Source: Lutjanus erythropterus (lineage: Eukaryota; Chordata; Actinopteri; Lutjaniformes; Lutjanidae). From it: a DNA stretch of 64,000 bases. How positions within the stretch are numbered: position 1 is the stretch's first letter; each line of letters begins with the position of its first letter. The position numbers were made by a program, and so were the translations under genes. The stretch is from NCBI GenBank assembly GCA_020091685.1, contig CM034600.1:36876077-36940076 (forward strand). The letters run 5' to 3'. Shown here piece by piece: positions 150-57,114 of the stretch. The notes under the pieces are model-generated. The model made no database searches, was not told where the DNA came from, and worked only from the letters and a program-made list of their open reading frames with translations.

Positions 150-3100
150 GTATTTCATTTATAAGTTGTGATTTAAAGTCACACAAAGAGCTGCCAGATT
201 TATCTGGAAGGAAACAAACAAAAATGTCCAGACTGTGTTTATTATCAAACAAAGTGTGTTGAGTGTTGAAGTACATTCATATGATATAAATCTGTATGTA
301 TGTTCACATGTGAACAATGAAGTCAAACTGTCAAATCTATCAATATATTGATAAAACAACAGAGTAATTGTGAATTTGACATGTTTCATTTGACTTTTAT
401 GGATTAAAAAAAAAAAATGCCTAAACAGTCAAATAAAGTTTCCCTTCTCTTTCTTTCAGGTTCAAAGCACGAGTGTAAGTAAATGACTTTTTAAGTATCT
501 TATTATTGGTTGATGAGAACTTTACTCTACTGTGCAGAGAGATTTTGAAAAAGTTGTGAAGAGAATAAAGTCCACATTTGAAGAGCAAAAAGGTCATGAG
601 ATCACAACAATGAAATCAAACTTTTAAAAGAAAAACATTCTGAGAACAAGTCAAAGACGCAATATTTTGAGAAAAGTTAACAGATTTTGCTCAAATTTAG
701 AGTTTGAGAGCAGACAGGTGAAAATCTGAATTTATATTCTAATATGTTCAGTTACACAAAGAGCTGCCAGATTTAACTGGAGAGAAACAAACAAAAATGT
801 CCAGACTGTGTTTATTATCAAACAAAGTGTGTTGAGTGTTGAAAGCTGGTATATAATGTATGTTCACATGTTAACAATGAAGTCAAAATGTCAAATCTAT
901 CAATATATTGATAAAACAACAGAGTAATTGTGAATTTGACATGTTTCATGAGATTTTTATGGATTGTAAAAGAAAAAAAACACTTGTCTAAATTAGCAAA
1001 TAAAGTTTCCCTTCTCTTTTATTTCCTTCTTTCAGGGACATTAAGTGACGGTAAGTAAAAAACTTTTTTTTCATCGATTAAAAGGATGCAATATTTCAAG
1101 AAAAGTTAAAAGAATTTGGAGATTAACAGTAGACAGGTGAAAATCTGAACTTATATTCTGATATATGTTTCAGAAATATGAACATATTTTCTGGCACATC
1201 AGTATGTCAATAATAAAAGATTACATAAAATTGAAACCACTGGGTTTAATCAGTCCTGACTGTCAATAAGAAAAAGATGTGGAGTTTAATAAGTGGCATG
1301 ATGGGACGGAGGACCAGATCCTGCCCTGCATATCTTGAAGTAGAGGGGAATTTCTCAACAAAACAAGTACAAATTGCAAATTGTTTTATTGATTATTTTT
1401 GTGATACAGTAAGAAGTGTAAATTTAACATTGAAAAACTGACGTTGAGGACAGGCCGCCGGGTGTAGATAATTTAGGTGTTAAATTTCAATTTAATTGCT
1501 GTTCCTGTCTGTCATATTATAAATTTGAGTATTGAAAAATGTATTTGTCCACAGACATGGAAGACAGCAAAAATTGTTCCACTTTCAAAGAATCCACCTG
1601 CACCATTTTCTGGTGCAAACAGTTACCAGCTTTAGGAAAGAATTTAAACATTTAAACTCAGATTATCAACATGTTTAGAGGCCTGGTCATTCCACTTACG
1701 GCTCTGACACAAATGATTGATGACCGGCAAAGTGAGCAAGATAAGAAAAATGACAATAATAATATTCTTGGTCTATCCCACTACATCAGTCTATACTGGT
1801 ATTGGTATATTAACAGATAAATATCATCTATAGTAATATCTGATTCGACAGACTGTCAAGGCAGATGCTCGATAAAAGTCAAAGTATATTTGTGATTTTT
1901 TGTCGAGGAGTCTCAACTGTTCTTATTGTGTTTCATGTGACTTTTATGGATTTTAGAAAAAAAAAAACCTAAACAGTCAAATAAAGTTTCCCTTCTCTTT
2001 CTTTCAGGTTCAAAGTACGAGCGTAAGTAAATGATTTTGAAGTATCTTTTTATTGGTTGATGAGAATTTTACTTTACTGTGCAGAGAGATTTTGAGAAAA
2101 AGTTGTGGTGACAATAAAGGTCATGAGATCAGAAGAAAAAAGTCAAAATTTTAAAAGAAAGAAAATCATGAAAACAACTAAAGGAAGCAATATTTTGAGA
2201 AGAGTTACAGAATTTTGAGTTTTGAGTTTTCTTGGCTCCTCTATGACAATAACTTACTTAAGTTTCCCTTCTCTTCTTTCAGATTCAAAGCAACCGTGTA
2301 AGTAAATGACTTTTTAAATATGTTCTTATTGGTTGATGACAATTTTACTTTACTGTGCAGAGAGAGTTTGAGAAAAAGTTGTGGTGACAATAAAGGTCAT
2401 GAGATCAGAGAAAAAAAAGTCAAAATTTTGTAAGAAAAATACAATCATGAAATCAAGTAAAAGATGCAACATTTTGAATTCTGAGTTTTGAGTTTTCTTG
2501 GCTCCTCTATGACAATAACGTACAAAATATTCTTGGCCTATCCCACGATATCGGTGAGAATAAAGGTCATGAGATCACAAGAATAAAGTCAAAATTTTAA
2601 ACTAAAAATATTCTGAAAACAAGTTAAAGATGCAATACTTTGAGAAAAGAATTTGGAGTTTGAGAGCAGACAGGTGAAAATCTGAATTTATAGTCTAATA
2701 TGTTCAGTTACACAAAGAGCTGCCAGATTTAACTGGAGAGAAACAAACAAACCTATACTGTCTTTATTATCAAACTGTGTCGTGTCAAAAGTGTGTTGAG
2801 TGTTGAAAGCTGGTATATAATGTATGTTCACATGTTAACAATGAAGTCAAACTGTCAAATCTATTAATATATTGATAAAACAATGGTGTGACTGTGAATT
2901 TGACATGTTTCATGTGATTTTTATGGGTTATAAAAGAAAAAACCTGCCAAAATGAGCAAATAAAGTTTCCCTTCTCTTTTCTTTTCTTCTTTCAGATGCA
3001 TACCGTAAGGGTAAGTAAATAACATTTAAGTAGAATTTTACTCTACTGTGCAGAGAGATTTTGAGAAGAATTTGTAAAGAGAATAAAGGTCATGAGATCA

Positions 3101-3240
3101 GAAGAATTAAGTCAAAATTTTAAAAGAAAAAAATATCATGAAAACAACTAAAGGATTGTAAATTGTAAACTAATATTTTGACAAAAGTTAAAAGAACAGT
3201 AGACAGATGAAAATCTGAACAATAATCTAATATATGTTTC
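150..3240 (+). repeat. Duplicated intron units carrying the microexons
   Basis: The introns are built from related blocks. The stretch containing CACAAAGAGCTGCCAGATTT recurs at about 171, 754 and 2711. The acceptor stretch containing AAATAAAGTTTCCCTTCTCT recurs before the microexons at 460, 1036, 2008 and 2996, with a shorter form before 2283. The stretch after the donor (GTAAGTAAATGAC, then TATTGGTTGATGAGAA) also recurs. Exons and introns therefore multiplied as units by local duplication. Confidence 0.85.
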
Positions 3241-4696
3241 AGCAAAATGAACATATTTTCTGTCAGTATGAAAAGATTTAATAGAATTGAAACAACTGGG
3301 GTTAATCAATCAATCAATCAATTAGAGAGAAATACAGTATATCAGATGGTCTTCAGTGGACTGATGTCTGTTTGGGATGAGAAAGACAAAAGTAGAGACA
3401 AAACTGATCTTTGAAGTAACAGATAAACTGCAGCAGCGACTTCATCCAGACAGTTTATTGTTTTAGAAAAAGATCAAATCCTCAGGCTTGTTAAAGAACT
3501 TTCTTCTTATAGGTATGTCTGTCAAGAAATGTGGTTTGTACTGTGGTACTATTATTACTTTGAACACAGAGAATTAAGCATAAAATGGAACTGGTCCCTG
3601 ACACATTATTGTTCTTTCTGCTCTTAAATGTGGTGGCTTATCATTTATGTTTCATTCTGTATTAGAGCTGCAACAATTAATCAATTATTAAATTAATCGC
3701 CAACTGCAGTTTTTTGATAATTGATTCATTTCAATCAACATTTAAGATAAAAAAAAAAAAATCAGAGTTCTCTGATGTCAGCTTCTTAAATCTGACTGTT
3801 TTCTGGTTTCTTTGCTCCTCTATGACAATAACTTTTTTTTTTCTTTTTTTTAACAAAATATTCTTGTCCCATCCCACTATGGGTCACTAAGGGTCAAAAC
3901 TGTTCTTTTTTCTTTCTGTTGTGACAGTAATGTCAGTTAGATTTGGTTCAGAGCTATTAAATATTAAATTATCCATATTTGCTCACAACAATTTGGCCTT
4001 TATGACTCTCAGATGTTCATAACCTACAGGTTATATGAACTTAATTTTAAAATACAAAAATGTTAAAATATTGGTTATTTATTGGTATCAGCCATGAGAA
4101 GCAGGTAATTATCAGTTATCAGTTGAAAATAATCTGTATCATGCATCTCTAGAAACATTATCAGTGTTTGATTTAATATGTGTTGTGTCTCTTTGTTTGC
4201 AGCTCATGTAAATTTGAGAGCAGGTGGAGAGATTTCTGCTGGTACAGCCGGGTTGGTGAACATGATCGACACCTTTGACCGACGTGGTGACGCTTATACT
4301 AAAAAAACCTATGCAAGTGCAGGGACATATGCAGAGGCATTTAAGGATGAACCTGGGAAGCGTGTTCCCAAAGCAGGAGTGTACGCTGGTGCAGGTGTGG
4401 GCAAGGCTCGTGCTGAATGGAGCGTTTTTGATGCTGAGGCCAAAGGGCCCAACGCCTCTGCAGGGCTCGAAGCCTCTGCAGCGTCTCTCAGCGCCGGAGC
4501 CTTCGCCAGAGCAGAAGTGGCCAGTGCTTCAGCCACCGCTGGTCCAGTGAAAGCTACAGTCGGTCTGGCAGTAGATACTGGTGCCAGTATTGGTCTGACA
4601 GGTATAGAGGCAAAGGTGCTGGGAACAGGCTTCTCCATCGGCCGTAAAACGAGTGTCTCATTGCTGGGGAATGAGCTTGAATGTTGCATTTCCTAA
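460..4696 (+). CDS. Unrecognised microexon gene, 3' part (Ala/Gly-rich protein)
   Basis: Partial gene; its 5' end lies left of the window. Exons inferred from splice signals: 460-474, 1036-1050, 2008-2022, 2283-2297, 2996-3010 (15 nt each) and the terminal exon 4203-4696. Every microexon is preceded by a pyrimidine tract ending TTTCAG and followed by GTAAGT. All are phase 1, so each adds five codons without shifting frame, and the joined frame has no stop up to TAA at 4694-4696. The encoded microexon string reads SKHE-W-TLSD-G-SKYE-H-SKQP-Y-AYRK before the last exon. The last exon encodes about 164 residues rich in Ala and Gly with many charged residues, including runs such as GVYAGAGVGKARAEW, and ends ELECCIS. 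I do not recognise the family and assign no function. The terminal CCIS fits a CaaX prenylation box, which is inference only. The splice chain is inferred and not transcript-supported. Confidence 0.72.
3661..3850. repeat. Dispersed teleost repeat, AATTAATCGATTA-rich family
   Basis: Begins GAGCTGCAACAATTAATCAA and continues with TTAAATTAATCGCCAACTGC. Related copies occur at about 9,600, 14,735 and 46,095. It has no coding content. It lies in the last intron of the microexon gene. Confidence 0.7.
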
Positions 4697-5250
4697 TGAA
4701 ACTTGCTCTGACGTTTCCAGTCTCATACACATATTTCTTAAGTCAAGTATCAGTGCATGTCGTCACTGCAGATAAAACATTTTAACTACATAAGTGATTT
4801 TTTTTAATGTCTCTTAGAGATGAGCAGGTGACACTGAAGCTGAATATTTTCACTTCCTGTGAAGCTCCACCAGACGTCACTGTGTTCACTGAGTTTGAGG
4901 CACTAAAGCTTCAAATCTTTTTCTGCACAAATAGAAAAAAAGACAAATTTACATGAGACTTCATCCACCCATCACTAACAGAAAGTGAAATTACCAGTTT
5001 CTGTCAAACTGAAAACAAAGTACACAAATAAGATGATTGTACTTTAACCTTTCAGAGACCAGCTTCAACGGTTTTACTTTATTTTCTACCTGCTGGCTCA
5101 CACTCAACTTCATCATGCTTTGTTGATATTAAACTTGTATCACTCAAGAAATGTTAACTTCTTATTGTCTGTATTTGTCTGTATTATGTTTCTTTCTTTG
5201 CATAGTTTCACATACAGATGTGACTCAGGTCTGAACTGAATTACAATAAA
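4697..5250 (+). other. 3' UTR of the microexon gene with candidate poly(A) signal
   Basis: Follows the TAA stop. AATAAA at 5245-5250 is the first good poly(A) signal seen downstream. The 3' end position is inferred. Confidence 0.5.
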
Positions 5251-13700: not shown

Positions 13701-15685
13701 ATGCTGCACACAAAGGGAATAAAGCAGCGACCTGTACTAACAGGACAGTCTGGCAGTAATTTCACAGCACGATAAATTTAATATTTAAAAAAAGAAAAAA
13801 AAAATGAATCCAGTGAATCACTTCACTGAAGTCCAAGATTTGATTTGAGGATTTTTTTAGGGCAATGTCGTCATAAAATTTAACAACAGACATTTGGAGC
13901 TTCACTTGAAAACTTCAAAAGAAGCTGCTAATATACAAACATGACATTCAGTAGGTCCAGCTGTAAATGAACACACTGTACTTGGTTTGATTGTTAAGAA
14001 GTATGTAGACTAACGTGACGATGAACTTACGTCACGCCCTCAGTAGACTCAGAATTCTTGTCAACTTTTACATTGTTGGCACTCTCAACTTTAGTGAAGT
14101 CCTGAAAGGAAGATGGAAACATTTGTCACAACCACACATAATGGTCTAATGAGGGGAAGTGAAAGAGCTCACATCATGAAATATCAACAATCACAATACC
14201 TCTGTATCCTCTGCCAGAACGTCGTCTACGTCCACATCTTCCTCTGATATTTATATGATGGTATGAACACCATAAAGTAAAAAGTAAGAGGGACAATGGG
14301 AGAGATCAGTGATTTTATCACAATGAGGAATCCATAAACAGAAAAAATGAATTAGATGATTATAAATCGAGAACTACCAGCCTCTCACAACAGAATAGTA
14401 TGTAGAAACAATTTAACAAGTACAGGTGTGACCGCACGAATAATAACTGATTGTAGTCCAAACACTGCCATATTTATACCCCTGTCTACAATGAGTCATA
14501 GTGTGAAGGATATTTCGTCTCACCGTGTTCCTCCAGATAGGCTTGCAGTCGGGCAATGAGTTCTCCTTTGTTTCCCTTGGTTTCCAGACCTCGGGCCTCA
14601 CATTCCTGCCTCAGTTCAGCAAGCTGAAACAACAAAAGAAATATATTTTTAATGAATATAACAAGCACAACTTACCCACCTTACTTTAATGTTCTTCATT
14701 GGGGGCAATTTCTTGAGTACTCAGTAGTCTCAAATAGAGCTGCAATGATTAATCGATTATCAAATTAACCCCCGACCTTTTGATAATCGATTAAACGGTT
14801 TGAGTAAGTATTTAGGAAAAAAGATTCCAAATTTCTGATTTCAGCTTCTTAAATGTGCATTTTTAGTTTCTTAACTCTTTCTATATTTCTCCTGATTATA
14901 CTTTATCCTATTTTTATTTTCATATTTCCCTTGCTTAAATTGTCCTTATTTTTTATATTTCCTCTTGCGTGTATTTTTATATTTTATTTTATTTTATTTT
15001 TTATGTCGTAACACTGTAAATTTCCCCTTTTTGGGACAAATAAATGAATATCTTATCTGAACTAACGTAATAAAGGGAAGGAAGAATAAATAAATAAATA
15101 ATACATTTTAAGACATCAACGATGTTCGGTCGGTTTAGCTGTTTAATTAAATCATGTAGTTACGTGATTTTTAGTACAACGCTAGTTCTCTCTTAAAAAC
15201 CATAAATAGACAGTACTTGAGTAAATGTAGTTAGTTACATTCCACCACTGGGCGGAGGTCAAACACACTGGTTACTGGTAACCTTAATTAAACTGGACCT
15301 GTGGAACAGCGATGGCGGGACACTTTGTACCTAACAACAGCAGCTACATTTGCCGTTGTAATACACCTAAATACAGTTTTATCTGTTAATTTAACTTATT
15401 TCCCAGCTGCCTGTTAGTCTACCATCATATATTTAATTTATATCGCTGTGGTTAGCTTCGCAGCTGAATGAAAAACGTGAACACACGCCGGTTCCTCGCC
15501 TTCACAGCCGGAGGAAACATTTTGTTCATTAAACTGTTCAGTTATCCGTCAGTCCGCTCTCTAGTACTGTAACTAACAACCGTTACAACATAATATTTAT
15601 TCATAAACCCACCTAATGTGTGTAATTAATACATATTTAAAGCTTCACCAACCTTCAGTTTCTGGAGCTCTATCACTTCGGCCAT
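7707..15685 (-). CDS. sarnp: SAP domain-containing ribonucleoprotein, complete
   Basis: Eleven coding exons on the - strand, in transcript order: 15685-15653, 14623-14524, 14243-14200, 14101-14031, 13083-13032, 11568-11495, 10096-10059, 9305-9277, 9171-9103, 7995-7909, 7748-7707. They sum to 639 nt, or 212 aa, close to the 210 aa of the human protein. The N-terminus (MAEVIELQKLK, then the LAELRQECEARGLETKGNKG stretch, about residues 1-45) is the SAP helix-extension-helix nucleic-acid-binding domain. An acidic linker follows. The C-terminal half repeats the family's KRAERFG-type motif: KRAERFNLP, KKRAERFGMNVSS, KKRKERFGAMTSS and KRAERFGIV at the end. In the family (SARNP/CIP29/Tho1), these proteins bind RNA and the helicase DDX39B as part of nuclear mRNA export. 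The donors of exons 7 and 10 are the weak GTCTGT. The gene is intact. Its promoter and exons 1-9 lie in the tandem duplication described separately. Confidence 0.96.
8171..8652. mobile_element. MITE-like element with AAAGGGATAGT termini
   Basis: Starts TTTAAAGGGATAGTGCAGCC and ends GGGTGAACTATCCCTTTAAA, a clear terminal inverted repeat about 480 bp apart. It has no coding capacity. It sits in the sarnp intron between exons 9 and 10. Confidence 0.8.
9600..9905. repeat. Dispersed teleost repeat, AATTAATCGATTA-rich family
   Basis: Contains CAATTATCAAATTAATCGCC, then GACAAAACGAGACATCTGAG, and ends near GATTAATCGATAATGAAAAT. It is the same family as the copies at 3,661 and 46,095. The duplicate lies at about 18,910-19,220. 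Confidence 0.7.
14735..14880. repeat. Dispersed teleost repeat, short copy
   Basis: GAGCTGCAATGATTAATCGA followed by TTTTGATAATCGATTAAACG. Located in sarnp intron 1. The duplicate is at about 24,010-24,150. Confidence 0.7.
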
Positions 15686-27757: not shown

Positions 27758-28464
27758 TGTATATACGTATGTATATGTACAGTATATGCAGGGATATACA
27801 TATAAAAAGTGAACAGCAGTGAAGTTTTTTTTTTTATAATCATAAAATATCCATACAACATCTATTTACACATATATATTCATGCAGTATATATTCAGTA
27901 GTTAAGACATATCTTACTCTTCATTTCAGTCTAAGTAGTAAAAGTATTCAACATGTTACTTCAGTCAGAGTACAGATTATATACATGATTATGGCTTGAT
28001 ACACATTTTTGTACATTTCTGTACATAATTCTTAGATCCATTATCACATTCCTATTCATTTTTTATTTTCAGTTTTATATTTTTGTATTGCTTTTACATA
28101 TTGTAAGTCAGTCACATGCAACTTTACACATTTCTTATTATATATATTTGTAATTATTACTATTTCTACTGTTACATTTTCTCTTTTATATATTGTAGTA
28201 GAATACATATTCTTCTTATTTCTATTCTTATAATTCTCGAGGCTTATTTACTGTTTATTTCTGGTCTTGAATGGAGGGATATTGTATTTAATGTAAAAAT
28301 AACTACCACTGTGAATATAAACGTGCAGTATTTTTCTGCATGTTGTGTAGTAGAGGTATAAACCAGCATAAAATTATAATATTTTATTGTGGTTCTTATT
28401 TGAAAGTTATTTCTTTTGTACTCAAGCGTGTCTCGTGATCCAATCTATTGCCCTACAAAAAAAG

Positions 28465-34700: not shown

Positions 34701-37700
34701 TATATTTAAAGAGGGGGCAGGTCCTCTTCTATGGAGGCAGCCATGTTTCTACAGTAGCCCAGAGTGGACAAACCAAACACTGGCTCTTGACAGAGCCAAG
34801 ACTGTCTTCACAACTTTATTATTTCCAGTTCAGTTATTGCAGTTTTAAATGTCTTAGTTGCAGAAAAAAATGCTTCAAACTTTATTTGAAACATTTAATT
34901 TCACTGCTTTCAGATATCATTCAGAATACAGGACTGAAAAAACTTGTTTTTTGCTTGAAGTACTTTGCTACTAGTTTGATTGATATGATAAGACTAAGAC
35001 TAAGATTTATAACTGATTTATTTATTTATCTGTTTGTTATACCAGGGACAGTGCATATTTCTAAACGTTACTGTAAAGATGCCACGGTTAGCCAAAAGAC
35101 TATTTTTCATCTATAGTCACTGGACAGATGTTACAAAAGCAGCCTGAAAAAAAACAACTTAAACTTACAATTAAAAATAAGACAGAAGAGAATATTAGCA
35201 GGACACCCTTATTCTACATTTTGAAGTACAAATGAAAAAAGTCACATAATTTGAGAAATGCAAAGCAGTGAAGTAGAAATAATGCACTAAATAAAACGAT
35301 ATTGTTCTGAATTATTAGGCACTAATCAACTATTTGGATCTCTTTTTAAAATCCTGTATATTTTAAATCCCACAAGGAAAGGCTGAAATAAAAGGGATGG
35401 GGAAAATTATTAGTTTTATTAATCCCTAATTATAATCTATTTATTCTACCATGCAGTATTGACCTAACAGTACAACAATCTGTGCAATAACACCACTGAG
35501 TAATACACTTGTGCAGTAATAAGAATTACCAATACTGCACTTAAACTGTACACTGTACAAATGAATCCTTTTATTTATAATATTCCTGCATTTTAACACT
35601 TATTTATAGAACTATTTTCACCTTTATTATTAAGGTATCATGTTGGTATATTTATGTTATAATTCTCTATATTTATCTATTTCTGTGTTGGTTGGAGAAA
35701 CTGAAATGTAATTCAGATTCGCTCCAGGGATCAATAAAAATTTTCTAATTCTGAATATTGTTCTATAAGCTATAAACTCCAGCTGCTGCCTGTTTATTTG
35801 CTGACATCATTATTTGGTGTCCTCCTCAGATCAAATCCCCTTCGCCGTCTCCCTCGACCAAGTGAACGACATTGTGGCCGGAGACATGCGCTTCATCCAG
35901 AACAGAGCGATCGCCTTCACCATCACCCTCCACGACCCCAGCGAGTACCTGAGCAACGCGGACATCACCTTCAACTGGGACTTTGGCGACGAGAGCGGGG
36001 CCCTCATATCCAGAGAGCTGACTGTCACTCACACCTACATCACCTCCGGATCGTTCAAACCTCAGGTGGTCATCCAGGCCGTCATCCCAGACAAGGCCTG
36101 CGACCCACCGAGCGAGACCCCGACCAAGGCCCCTGGTCCACCGACTGATCAGGGCACCACAGGTAACAAAGTGACGCTGTAGTACCAACATTTAAAGGTC
36201 CAGTTACCTACTGAACTGGAAAAGTTTTCAGTTTTTATTTCAGAAATCTGGTCATCTTATGGTAGGCACATTTTGTTATCTTTGGACAGATCCAGCCTAG
36301 CTGTTTCCACCTGTTTCCAGTCTTTATGCTAAGCTAAGCTAACTGGCGGCTGTCTAGCTGACTGGTATCGATCTTCTCATCTAACTCAAGCAAAAAAGCA
36401 AACAAGTGTTTTTGCTAAAATGTCCAACTAAAAGCTAAAACTGTTTTGCAGTATTCTCTCCCGACCTCAGCTCTAGATACACACAGACGTAACTCTACAA
36501 TCTTCCCTGTGTGTAGTCAAAGCTCCAGCACTGGCATCTGCTGTCCCAGTACTGGTTTCCACCAAGGCTGCTGGTCTGAATGTCAACGTGGTTCCTTCAG
36601 ACACAGAGGAGGACAACACTGAGGACGAGGCCTCCACTGCCTCCACTCACCAGCCTGTCCAGGAGGCACCCACAGTGGCCAAGACTCCTTCACCCGTCAA
36701 CCAGGACCTGCCAGCTGACAACGAGGCTCAGACCAGGCCTGCAGCAGGTAAAGTGTTTTTTGTATTGTTGTTTGTACACAGTTAGAGTTTAATTTTACCA
36801 GAGGATTACTTGTTCAATCCCCAGCAGAGGTAATACTGTGTGTGCAACAACCGCGATTTGTGTTGATACCAGCTGACCGACTGCCAGATGACCCAGATAT
36901 GAACATCAGCCGATTTCCTCAAATGTAAATGTGATGCAAATAAATATATAAAGACACACTGTCATTGTATGAAGCAAGCAGAGCGAGTTAACTTCAGAAC
37001 AAACGCTCTGTTGTACGATATCGTTTGAATTCTGATTTGCATGCTAGCTGAGAGTGGTCAGATCAAATTTTCTTATTGCATGTGATTTATTTATGGATCT
37101 ACAAAACACACCAAACCAAAAAGCTGCTCCACATTACAGGTAAAACAGAATAAAGAGAAGCTTTTGGCTGCATTATTTATAGGAGACATTATGCATGAAT
37201 GCACATTGTCCCTGATGTTACCGACATGCTGAGTGTGAACTGTTTTTACCTGCGAGCACCAGTGGCAGAAGAAGTATTCAGATCCTTTACTTGAGTAAAA
37301 GTACAAATATCACACAGTAAAAATACTACAATACAAGTAAAAGTCCTGCATTCAAGCCTTTACTCAAAGTATGTCAGTATAATCTGCAAAATTTACTTTC
37401 ATATGAAGAATAAAAGTGGTAATATTGCAGTAAAATGGTCCCTGTGAGTGTTTTAATGTTCTATCTGATGTTTTTGGATTAATGTGTATGTTGCATTTTA
37501 CTGCTGTATATTAAAGTGGAGCTTATTTTATCTGCTTTACATACTGTCAGGTAGTTTAATCTACAGAAATACATCATGTGTTTGTTGTGTTGCTGCCCTG
37601 TGAGAACCTCAAATCTCTAAAAAGTTTCATGGTGTCAGAAAAACAGCCTGTTTTCAGTTTTGTGATGATGCATTTTCCAGCTGGTCCAAGAGGGTTTAAA

Positions 37701-43928: not shown

Positions 43929-47099
<3,171 letters not shown>

Positions 47100-53835: not shown

Positions 53836-56980
<3,145 letters not shown>

Positions 56981-57114
56981 TAAATACATTCCAAAAAGAA
57001 ATGTTTGTCTGTTAATCAGTTTGGCTGTTCAGTCAATTTGGAAGTTCCTGTGATAAGAAGGGCTGGAGAGGAGGTAATCAGATTGTTAGGTTAGAGGAAG
57101 ACTGGAGTGTTTAA

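Follow-up and report, generated by a model that had tools for sequence, protein, structure and literature searches.

Predicted 15-nt exons multiplied by tandem duplication in a candidate fast-evolving gene family of the fish Lutjanus erythropterus

Results

A predicted gene with five 15-nt exons

We analysed a 64,000-nt stretch of contig C10 of the Lutjanus erythropterus genome (hereafter the window), adding the 30 kb upstream of it for the gene model and searching the whole 938-Mb genome where stated. With exons and splice sites predicted from the DNA, the window appears to hold the 3' part of a protein-coding gene, termed gene A. Upstream of the window, the model comprises a TATA-like element (TGGTATTTAT, near position -439), common to copies A, B and C of the family described below, and a six-codon exon 1 that starts with an ATG at window position -375, contributes 18 coding bases and ends at a GTAAGT donor. 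Within the window, on the forward strand, these are followed by a 40-nt exon 2 (35-74) with a poly-T/TTTCAG acceptor, a GTAGGC donor and an in-frame ATG at 44, entered in phase 0 and left in phase 1; by five 15-nt exons, A1 to A5; and by a last coding exon (4203-4696) with an open frame of 164 codons plus stop, which is A/G/S-rich and without a known domain. Six introns of 260-1192 nt lie inside the window, and a possible poly(A) signal, AATAAA at 5245-5250 (+), is assigned on motif position alone. The frame is open from exon 1 through exon 2 into the microexons and throughout the predicted product of 208 aa, which would read MSSGWE-KETMTLKASVSGP-(five modules)-AHVNLRAGG..., the modules being, in order, GSKHE-WTLSD-GSKYE-HSKQP-YAYRK. 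These modules are hydrophilic (mean hydropathy -1.9; -1.7 for those of the paralogous gene B), and microexons account for 75 of the 627 coding bases (12%).

Searches of gene A against Pfam, NCBIfam and PHROGs returned no family match at E up to 10, and a PDB sequence search found no related solved structure (best E 0.32 and 0.24, over short stretches). No relatives of the last exon were found among bacterial, archaeal and viral contigs. Predicted alone, the structure of the last exon had a mean pLDDT of 36.6, with 164/164 residues under 50 and many short strands; because of this very low pLDDT the model is unsuited to a fold search. Assessed by hydropathy alone, the N-terminus of gene A has no hydrophobic signal segment (top 11-residue Kyte-Doolittle mean 0.28 among windows starting at residues 1-30); on the same 11-residue scale, a stretch of paralogue B at residue 4 is moderately hydrophobic (1.94).

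Downstream of gene A, a SAP-domain exon (14525-14626, reverse strand; Pfam E 1.7e-12) presumably belongs to a SARNP-like gene. Also identified in the window were a PKD-domain exon (35805-36179, forward strand; Pfam E 3.9e-7), which we take to be perhaps that of a PMEL-type gene, and a tubulin gene (43929-45504, reverse strand), of which the part at 43932-44957 was checked against Pfam. Two further tubulin-like pieces in the open reading frame list (53836-54171, reverse strand; 56450-56983, forward strand) are likely parts of duplicated copies: one is a C-terminal end piece, and the other leaves the tubulin frame near its end.

The five 15-nt segments lie exactly where the original prediction had placed them: A1 at 460-474 (peptide SKHE plus split codons), A2 at 1036-1050 (TLSD), A3 at 2008-2022 (SKYE), A4 at 2283-2297 (SKQP) and A5 at 2996-3010 (AYRK), all on the forward strand. 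Its further claims on their signals and frame were borne out as well, with CTTTCAG directly 5' and GTAAGT directly 3' of each segment (5/5), phase 1 in all five, and a joined frame that stays open into the last exon. Each of the 32 possible combinations of skipped and included segments is in frame and ends in the same C-terminus (32/32), a statement on frame compatibility alone. A second candidate donor lies inside A5, after position 3004 (ATGCATACC followed by GTAAGG); its use would yield a 9-nt form, whose length is likewise divisible by three.

Across both strands of the window, the pattern YYYNYAG-N15-GTRAGK occurs at A1-A5 and at no other site. When a pyrimidine-rich CAG acceptor and GTAAGT were allowed to be 3-60 nt apart, six sites were recovered, namely A1-A5 and one of 30 nt, compared with a mean of 0.41 sites, none of 15 nt, in 100 sequences generated from the window by a first-order Markov model. 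The isolated 30-nt stretch (28073-28102, forward strand) is a possible single microexon. Genome-wide, TTTCAG-N15-GTAAGT is found 222 times, below its reversed control (338), and thus a lone site of this kind means little. Adding an 8-base pyrimidine tract to the pattern reduced this to 14 sites (reversed control, 6), seven of them in gene A and its upstream paralogue B, and the four genome-wide occurrences of CTTTCAG-N15-GTAAGTAAAT all fall in gene A (control, 1). Given that the copies were duplicated from one another, such clustering is by itself weak evidence.

SRRM3/4-regulated neural microexons carry a UGC element close upstream of the acceptor. TGC occurs in the last 30 intron bases before none of A1-A5 (0/5), and microexons of this neural type were rejected as a candidate on that ground.

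Growth of the array

Comparison of the flanking introns indicates that the predicted exons arose via tandem duplication of intron-plus-exon units. An upstream intron block duplicated with the exons is present at 264-418, 824-978 and 2788-2942 (78-94% identity to the reference copy), and a downstream block at 488-605, 2035-2152, 2311-2428 and 3004-3121 (69-89% identity), all on the forward strand. The upstream block of A2 is most similar to that of A5, the surroundings of A1 match those of A3 at 92%, and a downstream block is common to A3 and A4; on the basis of these likenesses, the first duplication was probably that of a two-exon unit, with A4 added later as a copy of A3.

Probes for the two blocks were also used to survey 94 kb around the gene family. 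An upstream-block probe without splice sites detected seven copies (one weak, E 0.008), and an intact 15-nt exon follows all seven; the probe was built from three gene A copies, and each of the four copies that were not in it has an intact exon. The downstream-block probe detected five copies, of which the four in gene A that built the probe are preceded by an intact exon; the fifth, a partial copy (2553-2597) and the only new one, does not follow an intact exon. Support for exon retention comes from the upstream probe; the downstream one contributes no independent evidence. An origin of the unit from a dispersed transposon was rejected, as a 301-bp probe matched five places genome-wide, all of them in gene A, a count that is a lower bound since related units of gene B were missed.

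Paralogous copies

A protein search of the genome identified four last exons, corresponding to genes A, B and C and a copy D, and the use of gene B as query revealed no additional last exon in the genome. Gene B shares the strand of gene A, its last exon being located about 7 kb upstream; gene C is found farther upstream and in the opposite orientation, and copy D consists of a last exon alone, on contig C18. The last exon of gene A is 57-64% identical to those of its three paralogues, figures that shift by a few per cent with the alignment used, at dN/dS of 0.43-0.63; across all six pairs of A-D, dN/dS is 0.43-0.65, and internal stops are found in 0/4 copies. The 5' region can also be aligned (A versus B, 69-70%; B versus C, 71%), and possible poly(A) signals occur in both A and B.

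The model of gene B starts with ATGGAAG, followed by a 75-nt exon, by three 15-nt phase-1 exons encoding the modules DPGND, DSGNN and DVGAK, and by a last exon, and is open for 170 aa, while that of gene C is open for 93 aa without microexons; module counts across the models of A, B and C are thus 5, 3 and 0. A profile built from the eight cassettes of A and B (each segment with its splice sites and flanks) recovered those eight alone in the 94 kb around A-C, the next match having an E of 0.25, and found no cassette in the 28 kb around copy D.

In one part of gene B (locus L006, 3777-3930), the 75-nt exon resembles, by eye, the start of B's own last exon, and behind it lies a remnant like a later part (EGRVSAEWDIFYAE, compare ARAEWSIFDAE). 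It seems that a duplicated last exon was disrupted here and that its first portion became an internal exon.

Splice sites are kept while the intervening 15 bases change

Among the five cassettes of gene A, invariant columns number 7/7 in the acceptor and 6/6 in the donor, compared with 2/15 in the exon and 10/46 in the flanks. With all eight cassettes of A and B, 12/13 splice columns are invariant, against 4/46 flank and 0/15 exon columns (Fisher, 2e-8 versus flank and 4e-7 versus exon), although the splice-column count is partly circular, as the cassettes were found by their splice pattern.

Pairwise comparison of cassettes within this one genome, rather than of orthologues, showed exon divergence above that of the flanks at p<0.05 in 11 of the 13 within-gene pairs. 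For example, A2 and A5 differ at 8/15 exon and 18/210 flank positions (p=4e-5), A1 and A2 at 10/15 and 13/201, A3 and A4 at 6/15 and 17/204, and B2 and B3 at 7/15 and 15/101. The two remaining pairs are A1-A3, with no exon excess (2/15 versus 25/241, p=0.49), and A1-A4, in which the excess is not significant (4/15 versus 23/184, p=0.13). In 10 of the 28 possible pairs, 15-nt windows were slid along the flanks; none was as diverged as the exon in 9/10, the exception being A1-A3, with 102/226 windows. Pairs that share members are not independent; combining three disjoint ones (A2-A5, A1-A3 and B2-B3) gave p=2e-5.

Anchored alignments stop once similarity is lost and so give lower flank divergence; the downstream flanks of A2 could be aligned over just 9-18 nt. 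A global alignment has no such stop: between the A2 and A5 units it gave differences of 0-13% per 50-nt bin across about 400 nt, and 10/31 in the bin with most of the exon, whereas between the A1 and A2 units the first bin is poorly aligned (34/50 different). Matched intron pieces of genes A and B are 8-32% different, mostly 20-30%, below the synonymous divergence of the A and B last exons (pS 0.44), as would be compatible with constraint on or homogenisation of the introns.

Other 15-nt stretches in the genome

A second kind of 15-nt stretch, GTAGATCTAxxxxxx, set between a consensus CAG and GTAAGT, was observed on contigs C5 (within 17360925-17371199) and C15 (4242196-4245539), in loci L026-L029. 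There are ten such stretches on C5 and five on C15, with no other exact match genome-wide and none in the reversed control. Their usual core, GTAGATCTAC, is a perfect palindrome, and a flanking GGCCGCCGTGCCTAAAT motif is common to both arrays; on C5, a second unit type (GTAGATCTAGAAAATTAG), which lacks the GTAAGT donor, is interspersed. The copies are nearly identical, and no flanking coding exon was recognised among the longest open frames viewed. These arrays may be satellite DNA, or else another set of microexons, which would encode VDLLK/VDLQK in phase 0.

Discussion

Taken together, we slightly favour an explanation in which the five segments are real exons and their modules are under diversifying selection, and in which gene A, at that same modest level of confidence, belongs to a small, fast-evolving family of copies adjoining a SARNP-like gene. 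The parts of this explanation differ in strength: that the segments are real exons is very probable, and, given real exons, diversifying selection on the modules appears reasonably probable. The architecture set out in the original prediction is supported, and gains further strength from the completed 5' end, from the three such exons of gene B and from the divergence pattern. Open frames over 15-nt exons alone are weak evidence, and we place the main weight on retention and divergence. Change that peaks between fixed splice sites is difficult to account for if the 15 bases are not treated unlike intron, that is, spliced and translated, and diversifying selection is the simplest reading of the exon divergence. 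From the DNA we infer transcription, inclusion in the mRNA, alternative splicing of the microexons, and positive selection as the cause of their divergence.

Under this preferred explanation, the N-terminal segment of gene A would be encoded by five 15-nt phase-1 exons derived from repeated tandem duplication, and the strong splice sites around each exon would allow the five-residue modules to be spliced in frame, such that the frame would survive the skipping or addition of single modules. The module peptides may then diversify under selection, with splice sites and exon length (15 nt) staying fixed, the outcome being a hydrophilic, modular and hypervariable stretch ahead of a conserved A/G/S-rich domain.

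The chief alternative account of the divergence pattern, rather unlikely in our view, keeps the exons and dispenses with positive selection: the modules would form a linker nearly free to change, set between introns that look young through constraint or gene conversion. Divergence of the matched A-B introns below the last-exon pS is what conversion or constraint would give, and the A1-A3 pair, without exon excess, also fits. However, conversion spanning both flanks should homogenise the 15 bases in the middle, and A3-A4, A1-A5 and A4-A5 align on both sides of the exon; the A2/A5 similarity, moreover, extends across about 400 nt of intron, which is long for pure constraint. A more radical departure, in which the 15-mers are splice-like pieces of a tandem repeat and the transcript joins exon 2 directly to the last exon, is improbable. 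Gene C is frame-compatible without microexons, and the C5 and C15 arrays hold 15-nt stretches between consensus splice sites with no obvious flanking coding exon; against this reading stand divergence that peaks between splice sites which diverged copies have kept, and the fact that 8/8 segments in two genes are 15 nt long and phase-compatible with open flanking exons. Least probable of all, and very improbable indeed, is that the whole locus represents a decaying pseudogene cluster; the lone last exon of copy D, with no cassette in the surrounding 28 kb, and the short gene C (93 aa) point in that direction, against which stand the lack of internal stops in all four last exons, their dN/dS of 0.43-0.65, the promoter-like element in common and the possible poly(A) signals of A and B.

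Compatible with our preferred explanation of real, diversifying exons, and only somewhat short of an even chance, is constitutive use of all five exons, which would make the array an odd layout without combinatorial use. The pyrimidine-rich acceptors and consensus GTAAGT donors at 5/5 exons would suit constitutive splicing, as would the lack of the TGC associated with SRRM3/4-regulated neural exons. Conversely, exon definition copes poorly with exons as short as 15 nt, so that some skipping is likely, and module numbers of 5, 3 and 0 among the paralogue models suggest that the protein tolerates their loss.

The layout proposed here for gene A was further compared with known systems of very small exons. 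The original prediction likened it to the micro-exon genes (MEGs) of schistosomes, and the likeness is apt for layout, most MEG exons being 15 bp (PMC10526429). MEGs are further described as built mostly of microexons with small symmetrical exons, as all encoding signal peptides, as apparently confined to platyhelminths and, for three of them, as having dN/dS above 1 in the mature region (PMC4350168). Gene A resembles them in its run of tiny symmetric exons (15 nt and phase 1 in 5/5 exons, and in 3/3 of gene B), in peptide differences of a few residues combined with fast evolution, and in faster change of the microexon-coded part, seen in 11/13 within-gene pairs at p<0.05 (A1-A3 and A1-A4 excepted). 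It is unlike them in that microexons contribute just 12% of its coding bases, in the absence of a hydrophobic N-terminus as judged by hydropathy alone, and in its host, a fish. Its composite layout has a counterpart in schistosome VAL-6, where a MEG-like stretch adjoins ordinary coding sequence: very small symmetrical exons form part of an otherwise conventional gene, and recombination with a MEG is hypothesised (PMC4350168); here the layouts, not the proteins, are compared, and the array of gene A, unlike VAL-6, grew through local tandem duplication.

Bicycle genes of aphids, putative insect effectors with about 17 exons on average, have many small internal exons that almost all start from codon position 2 (PMC9168663). 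A1-A5 likewise all start at codon position 2 within a fast-evolving novel protein, whereas exon 2 begins at codon position 1, and the microexons of gene A, unlike those of bicycle genes, are fixed at 15 nt and found in a fish. The fish gene thus resembles MEGs and bicycle genes in layout; membership in either group is not supported, and homology is not claimed.

Among vertebrates, human RPS24 carries three consecutive, alternatively used microexons (3, 18 and 22 bp) that lie between its exons 4 and 6 (PMC11162997), so that consecutive microexons as such are already known in vertebrates; gene A shares this feature and differs from RPS24 in its equal-length units. SRRM3/4-dependent neural microexons of zebrafish range from 3 to 27 nt and include one of 15 nt in vav2, and are described as individual microexons, unlike the array in gene A (PMC12626424). 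No vertebrate gene with an array of equal-sized, phase-matched and fast-diverging 15-nt exons came up in the open-access literature searched, in agreement with the earlier assertion that five such exons are very unusual in a vertebrate gene, and no paper containing five peptide words of the gene A protein was found in it.

Because of the fast evolution, tandem copies and lack of known domains, we would guess at a lineage-specific recognition or defence-type protein, in which variable modules meet changing partners. It is conceivable, if doubtful, that this fish family independently evolved a diversifier like the schistosome MEGs, with fixed five-codon exons, diversifying peptides and combinatorial alternative splicing of the N-terminal region. 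For annotation, the locus serves as a warning that gene finders and read mappers easily miss exons so short. It would also provide a tractable system, in which each unit is dated by its own introns and a single gene consequently allows exon divergence to be set against intron divergence. Parasite and insect effector genes are the main known setting for arrayed tiny symmetric exons that encode hypervariable peptides, and there such arrays are interpreted as weapons in an arms race. If our explanation is true, a vertebrate has the same layout, and simple tandem duplication may produce it even in a lineage far removed from those.
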